Shown in pieces: positions 1 through 22,873 of a stretch of DNA of 49,684 nucleotides. The notes under the pieces are model-generated. The model had not been told where the DNA came from. It saw only the letters and a program-made list of their open reading frames with translations, and did not search any database. This DNA is from Sporolactobacillus laevolacticus DSM 442 (lineage in GTDB: Bacteria; Bacillota; Bacilli; Bacillales; Sporolactobacillaceae). Where the stretch lies: assembly GCF_000497245.1 (NCBI RefSeq), contig NZ_AWTC01000003.1:180657-230340 (forward strand). Direction: 5' to 3'. Each line of letters opens with the position of its first letter. Position 1 is the stretch's first letter. Position numbers and translations under genes: made by a program.

Positions 1-19
1 AGCTGCGTTTCCTTGACCT

Positions 20-110
20 TCTTGCGACGCCCAGGATGGGCTAGTGCAGGCGTTGCAACAGGATGTTGCGTTCTTAGCCTGTAAACCTCTCCTTTGTCCT
101 CCTTCTCGAA
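20..110 (+). ncRNA. GGA-hairpin RNA-like element, copy A
   Basis: This gene-free stretch holds two short perfect hairpins, each presenting GGA at its apex: GCCCA-GGA-TGGGC at 29-41 and GCAACA-GGA-TGTTGC at 55-69. ACAGGATGT matches the core of the CsrA/RsmA binding consensus. A CU-rich tract with several CCTCC/CTCC runs (85-105) follows. A related sequence lies at 19523-19665 upstream of coiA, and its first stem is preserved with different bases. That argues for a conserved RNA read on the plus strand. I cannot assign it to a named RNA family. Its 5' end may lie outside the window. Confidence 0.45.
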
Positions 111-130
111 CTGACTATGTAAGCACAGAA

Positions 131-8169: not shown

Positions 8170-9512
<1,343 letters not shown>

Positions 9513-19380: not shown

Positions 19381-19487
19381 TTGTTTTCAATATCCCCGAT
19401 TAGAACATCTTTTGAATAAACTTTGTCCTATTTCTTAATCAGCAGGAATATTGGCGAATGCTGTTGAACTAATAGTTATTAGGAAAC

Positions 19488-19665
19488 TTGGCTTTGCCAA
19501 ACCTTTTCACGGGCGAAGCCTTAGTTGCGACGGTCATGGATGACCTAGTGTCCAGCTTGCCACAGGACGTACTTCCTCAGAATGCGATGGTTTCTGCGTT
19601 GTGCACAGGACATGCATGAATTTAGCAGAAGCCCCTTCTTACCTTTTCCCGGACATTTCGAACAC
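19488..19665 (+). promoter_or_regulatory. GGA-hairpin element, copy B, in the coiA leader
   Basis: From left to right: hairpins TTGGC-TTT-GCCAA (19488-19500) and GGC-GAA-GCC (19512-19520); then TTGCGACGGTCATGGATGACCTAGTG-type sequence with stem GGTCA (19532-19536)/TGACC (19541-19545) and loop TGGA; then ACAGGAC (19562-19568) and GCACAGGACATGC (19603-19615), which shows TTAGC downstream as in copy A. Compared with 20-110, TTGCGACG, GGATG, CTAGTG, GCGTTG, ACAGGA and TTAGC are shared, while the first stem differs by paired changes. It ends about 25 nt before the coiA start. Confidence 0.5.
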
Positions 19666-19690
19666 TCTCTATAAGAAAGGCGGTGAACAC

Positions 19691-22818: not shown

Positions 22819-22840
22819 AAAACATAATAGAGTCTGTTCG

Positions 22841-22873
22841 AAAAGGACTGGAGCCAAGGCTTCAGTCCTTTTC
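22841..22873 (+). terminator. pepF terminator
   Basis: AAAAGGACTGGAGC / GCTTCAGTCCTTTT stem with a T-tail. Confidence 0.85.

Follow-up and report, generated by a model that had tools for sequence, protein, structure and literature searches.

Bacillaceae-1 (Rfam RF01690) has been described as an RNA, is classed as certain in a table of Weinberg et al. (PMC2864571), and appears in a list of the small RNAs most abundant in databases (PMC9029176). A proposal made in 2015 holds that its reverse complement binds CsrA (PMC4333381). The repeat of CsrB, as quoted in a review, is CAGGA(U/A/C)G (PMC7652899), and CsrB/CsrC-type RNAs, like TwoAYGGAY, have in common with the element studied here paired hairpins with GGA in their loops (PMC4333381, PMC7652899). 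BOX, RUP and SPRITE of pneumococcus resemble it in another respect, as modular miniature repeats that are inserted into one another and have extensive secondary structure (PMC3049150). MITEs offer a further point of comparison, with their inverted repeats, short target duplications and lack of a gene. REP sequences, which are associated with RAYT transposases, are likewise short dispersed hairpins, often paired or inverted.

Our starting point was a window of 49,684 nucleotides from Sporolactobacillus laevolacticus DSM 442 (G000:C3:180657-230340; the whole genome, G000, is 3.59 Mb), for which the original prediction had described a GGA-hairpin element in two copies, A and B, with compensatory stem changes. 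The shared blocks and paired stems are indeed present in the sequence, and both copies proved to be members of Bacillaceae-1, matching RF01690 on the minus strand in cmscan above the gathering cut-off of 35: copy A over the full length of the model (93-28; E 5.8e-9), and copy B with an E-value of 2.7e-4 (19641-19574; Table 1). The family is already known, and Rfam models the opposite strand. The element is not confined to two copies: the search returned 80 RF01690 matches in this genome at E-values up to 1, 69 of them above the cut-off, either single or grouped by two to four, with the last one often inverted. In seven places a single N is flanked by two matches; we take these pairs for doublings at assembly joins, which leaves about 73 distinct copies. 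The layout of the matches and the stems within this genome were analysed on 79 of the 80, leaving out a 25-nt partial, and the stems were counted on 41 distinct 68-mers.

Table 1. Features of copies A and B and of their host elements in the window (positions from the first base of the window)
Feature	Position	Strand	Basis
Right part of the copy-A MITE	1..117	+	ends fit MITE repeats; TGTAA at either end; site unoccupied in G013 contig C18
Copy A, Bacillaceae-1 module	28..93	-	RF01690, 61.5 bits, 1-67 of 67
Copy A small hairpin GCCC-AGGAT-GGGC	29..41	.	read from sequence; third helix of the Rfam alignment
Copy A two-storey hairpin	45..83	.	outer stem 45-51 / 77-83, inner stem 55-59 / 65-69, loop AGGAT 60-64
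MITE right terminal inverted repeat, diverged	102..117	-	sequence compared with other MITE ends
5-bp target duplication TGTAA, right copy	118..122	.	single TGTAA at the empty site, G013 contig C18
Type-2 hairpin repeat, right part, joined to copy B	19470..19522	-	compared with type-2 repeats; boundaries approximate
Copy B outer module, 3' half, split by the inner module	19523..19573	-	hairpin 19532-19545; read by comparison with unbroken modules (e.g. C9:107911)
Copy B inner Bacillaceae-1 module	19574..19641	-	RF01690, 41.5 bits
MITE inverted repeat beside the coiA start	19654..19669	-	C3:200310-200325, one mismatch

The repeating unit is a module of about 57 nt (56-60 nt) with two hairpins, whose conserved loops read RTCCT on Rfam's strand and AGGAY on the other; in copy A, the two-storey hairpin, read from sequence, corresponds to helices one and two of the Rfam alignment. 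We aligned 150 distinct related copies with a sequence-only profile, these being what was left of 281 nhmmer hits after removal of duplicates and of any row exceeding 12 gaps. The pairing of the module is not due to chance, because 2258 of the 2379 stem cells are Watson-Crick and most pair positions hold several pair types. Over the copies compared, the linkers UAA and AAC are conserved at 98-100% and most loop bases at 92-100%, matching the stems. The single-strand folding of both copies is little better than that of shuffled sequence (z -1.79 and -1.37 on the two strands of A, -0.31 and 1.03 on those of B). The conserved shape alone does not show a regulatory RNA.

Considering the surroundings of copy A, the module lies within a MITE, the left part of which precedes the window, from about G000:C3:180470. 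The twin of copy A found just before the window reflects an identical stretch of 87 nt on either side of one N, which we read as an assembly join; with this doubling discounted, the element has a real length of about 216 nt, corresponding to the core plus one module. Terminal inverted repeats are present, the right one diverged, and TGTAA stands on both sides of the element, whilst contig C18 of a congener (G013) shows the site empty, with one TGTAA between flanks about 96% identical. The duplication preserves the stop codon of a 229-aa reading frame upstream. Contig C18 (L299, 27.9 kb) differs little from the window genome (fabH 99%), and a second fabH region of G013, at 88%, lies on another contig; C18 may be foreign to G013, through contamination or recent transfer. 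Even if so, its sequence shows the MITE target in its unoccupied state. The CU-rich tail with CCTCC, originally taken as part of the element, belongs to the host instead: it adjoins the inverted repeat at the MITE end and lies outside the Rfam motif. A 366-nt query, made of this type of MITE with three modules, found no match in the plasmid and phage collections.

The ends of the MITE read GAGnnTGTTCrAAAAG around a core of 154 nt, and of 20 additional stretches chosen by such ends, 15 contained an element of 153-155 nt lacking the module. Scanning named genomes with one end gave at least 109 loci, mostly in Bacillaceae and relatives, Sporolactobacillus and Brevibacillus. Amongst 111 end pairs lying 120-420 nt apart, from loci fetched for the module or for one MITE end, 46 have an exact 5-bp duplication (TATAA, TATTA, TTAAA and similar) where shuffled flanks lead us to expect 4.9. 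What sets this host apart from other MITEs is that Bacillaceae-1 modules lengthen it by about 59 nt at a time: a profile search detected the module in none of 51 elements of 150-157 nt, in 12 of 19 of 206-223 nt and in 11 of 13 of 264-279 nt, and two or more modules in all 11 of 331-345 nt, with 17 elements falling outside these four classes. The profile overlooks some diverged modules, hairpins being visible in two of the seven profile-negative elements of 206-223 nt. The remaining five have no module by either the profile or the hairpin test, so other inserts must exist; the MITE near position 599 of L198 indeed holds a different, hairpin-like insert of about 62 nt alongside a Bacillaceae-1 module. 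Not every length step is thus Bacillaceae-1, and other small cassettes may share this host. No autonomous transposon with these ends and its own transposase was found. The sole match to PF01609/DDE_Tnp_1 in the window genome is an IS1182-like protein at a contig end, lacking MITE ends; the two long end pairs examined first, and two further ones with a near-matching duplication, enclose, judged by eye, either ordinary genes or a carbonic-anhydrase-like frame.

Copy B lies upstream of coiA, in the gap that separates this gene from mecA, and is made of nested parts: towards coiA it carries a MITE end, towards mecA sequence of a second type of hairpin repeat (type 2). One module here splits another, and the outer one gave no separate Rfam match above the cut-off. 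The predicted alignment of A with B rests on shared blocks that do exist, but it spans two modules, since the hairpin at 19532-19545 is outer and the rest inner. Copy B is probably a recombinant. A module-like match occupies the mecA-coiA gap in four of 15 genomes of the genus, our own included. Elsewhere in the window, a stretch like a MITE end (22830-22845) is found at the base of a terminator-like hairpin, perhaps a remnant, perhaps chance, and a T-box leader (9250-9495, minus strand, 120.5 bits) precedes a class I (Trp/Tyr type) tRNA synthetase gene (8170-9357).

Once separated from its hosts in this way, the module can be followed into quite unrelated surroundings. The MITE occurs without it or with one or more, at different sites and in either orientation. 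In Bacillus sp. FJAT-14578 and Priestia abyssalis, the one-module and empty forms of the MITE differ by a clean insertion of 59-60 nt, oriented in reverse of site 1 of the window genome; in the latter, the insertion at site 3 is equally clean, and at sites 1 and 2 a few core bases are replaced. The type-2 hairpin repeat exists in forms of 52-53 nt and 110-113 nt. A palindrome of 128 nt stands side by side with a form of 182-188 nt in one locus (L283), the module replacing the apical hairpin. A BsrG-like RNA (L346:1397-1708; 83.3 bits) contains a module, 85 nt taking the place of the model's 26-nt loop, and in G018 the module sits inside yet another repeat, at loci chosen for holding it. The 60 loci examined for context were, more generally, chosen for high-scoring modules. 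Modules are also nested inside modules in the window genome; in two such places (G000:C4:282502-282709 and C16:112184-112391) the opening arms (GGATCTTnnGCTAA) outnumber the closing arms, a surplus hinting at repeated insertion or template switching. Within one genus, copy number runs from 0 to 63 among the matches listed, at most about 71 per genome. Between two close relatives we caught no gain or loss of the module alone at one locus. BOX, RUP and SPRITE, compared here by their published description (PMC3049150), differ in that our module recurs in several hosts with no relation to each other and is also found next to rRNA genes.

A position near rRNA operons has been noted for Bacillaceae-1 before. 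In G377 (all eight matches) and G071 (all three), the end of the module coincides with the start of the 16S model, in the sense direction; further sense cases stand before 16S (G021 and G020), before 5S (G044) and just behind 16S (G193), with another judged from sequence (G025). Antisense modules occupy the 16S leader in G216, G291, G012 and G001, lie 422 nt upstream of 16S in G055 and, judged by likeness to the G012 leader, occur in G008 also. This makes seven genomes with sense and six with antisense copies; G377, G071, G216 and G291 belong to one genus and have opposite orientations at the equivalent 16S position. An rRNA gene was seen in 15 of 20 loci of a first set and six of 12 of a second, though the choice of loci was not random: they came from low-copy genomes and contig ends, or were included for an apparent link to rRNA. 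Modules next to 16S or 5S, in both orientations and in one case just after 16S, were noted in L333-L344, L348, L350, L352, L115-L117 and L126.

Taken together, the TGTAA duplication with its empty site, the 46 duplications in 111 end pairs, the length steps, the clean insertion of 59 nt, the several hosts and the two orientations lead us to the reading that the Bacillaceae-1 repeat is a mobile DNA cassette of about 57 nt and two hairpins, which sits in hairpin loops and is spread by its hosts; we give this a probability of roughly 0.6. The module itself would move, or be captured, into the loops of longer hairpins, and transposition of the host would then multiply it. The machinery responsible may recognise the hairpins and loops of the module, perhaps in single-stranded DNA, for which REP and IS200-type hairpins provide a comparison, and a function as RNA, if any, would be secondary and locally confined. 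We would go only tentatively as far as to call Bacillaceae-1 primarily a mobile unit rather than an RNA gene, one that a putative loop-reading enzyme inserts in either orientation and with no evident target duplication into hairpin loops, be they of MITEs, palindromic repeats, its own copies, the BsrG-like RNA or the leader next to 16S rRNA. Position in a loop could reflect tolerance and not targeting, the module perhaps being tolerated only in hairpin loops, and an RNA role would also account for the conserved loops and linkers. We found no enzyme that moves the module. An origin in the REP/RAYT manner was considered and set aside, as the 6.5-kb locus (L078) of the intact Y1_Tnp protein of the window genome (160 aa, IS200-type) yielded no RF01690 match; a second Y1 protein is broken at a contig end, and a Y1/RAYT source might still be a distant one. 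REP sequences differ from the module also in that the module, for which no RAYT was seen, has conserved loops and variable stems.

Does the module then act as RNA at all, and on which strand? On the + strand both loops read CAGGAYG, fitting the CsrB repeat, and each module offers two GGA motifs in hairpin loops, as expected of a CsrB-like RNA. The original prediction saw GGA at or near every apex, which holds for both loops of the module in general, but GGA is missing from both loops in G056; the loop ATCGT replaces ATCCT at L289-L291 (G056) and L295 (G024), in both hairpins at L289 and L290, where the two loops have thus changed in a coordinated way. The prediction also stated that ACAGGATGT equals the core CsrA consensus, which is too strong, as the SELEX core ACARGGAUGU is longer by a base. 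The suggested check for csrA returned one match in the window genome (87.9 bits). Copies whose AGGAY strand is transcribed, alone or by read-through, might on this evidence serve as CsrA sites or decoys, their paired GGA hairpins binding the protein and the mobile hosts scattering the sites, CsrA binding of the reverse complement having been proposed in print (PMC4333381). Within a sample of 398 genomes of the class, with up to 12 module matches counted per genome, csrA is present in 77 of the 80 with modules and 156 of the 318 others, an association that follows phylogeny and is thereby confounded; G139, G250 and G321 carry modules with no csrA match, and the presence of csrA in 57 of 58 relatives is uninformative. 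The wobble pairs tilt the same way, with 27 GU against 63 AC on Rfam's strand (AC being GU on the other strand; 31 cells are of other kinds) amongst the 150 copies and 24 against 46 at 90% clustering, yet this shrinks to 21 against 33 without the outermost pairs and to 14 against 17 at 80% clustering, and G018 leans the opposite way by five to one. Orientation relative to co-directional neighbours has no clear bias (11 for this strand, eight for Rfam's), 33 of 45 module loci overlap no reading frame of at least 80 aa by a simple caller, and both orientations occur in MITEs and beside rRNA genes. The mixed orientations count against one fixed RNA strand. Nor do the signals at copy A suggest a transcript of its own, as expected of a CsrB-like RNA: the scan there gave one promoter-like site, beyond the element, where 1.1 are expected, and no terminator-like site, which is not above chance. 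From CsrB/CsrC-type RNAs and TwoAYGGAY, as these are presented in the same two papers, the module, known here from sequence alone, differs in a loop of five bases rather than six and in occurring both ways round. The CsrB-like part of the original prediction thus keeps its loops and its csrA gene, but has to give way on the mixed orientations, on the dispersed nature of what is an insertion module, and on priority. It is possible that some transcribed copies bind CsrA; such binding does not explain the distribution of the module, and as an account of the whole family we hold it to be rather unlikely.

A structured RNA on Rfam's strand, whose RUCCU loops would pair with other RNAs, fares worse and strikes us as very improbable, in spite of Rfam's assignment, the certain-RNA rating in the table of Weinberg et al. 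(PMC2864571) and the sense copies that immediately precede 16S in G377 and G071. Such a strand should favour GU, and the counts above, like those from the window genome alone (GU 11, AC 13), leave Rfam's strand unsupported and the other mildly favoured at best, whilst antisense copies lie beside 16S in six genomes. The wobble counts and the two orientations beside rRNA genes speak against any fixed RNA strand. That Rfam's strand has no wobble excess would suit yet another account, in which the module neither moves nor functions: template switching between hairpin arms could keep the pairing, and recombination could exchange modules among repeats. Copy B, which looks like two host types fused within a module, and the nested copies with their excess of opening arms fit this as well, but it leaves unexplained why linkers and loops are as conserved as stems, and the clean insertions at unrelated sites count against it; we regard it as improbable. 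The cassette carried by its hosts remains our preferred reading, with the hairpin element of the original prediction real, if far more numerous than first thought.

What was already known is the family and, from the 2015 paper (PMC4333381), the CsrA idea. What appears new is Bacillaceae-1 as an insertion module common to unrelated miniature elements and with no fixed strand: described as RNA (PMC2864571), it lies in most of the copies examined here inside mobile or repeated elements, and in the literature searched, as far as it was covered, no paper calls it mobile or ties it to MITEs. Many database copies of Bacillaceae-1 may accordingly be inserts in mobile repeats and not genes. Strong covariation with no fixed RNA strand is, in turn, a caution for RNA discovery based on covariation, whilst the modules abutting 16S and 5S raise questions on rRNA processing that can be tested. 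The CsrA proposal becomes directly testable on both strands. And should the cassette move by itself, it would point to a new activity on hairpin loops.
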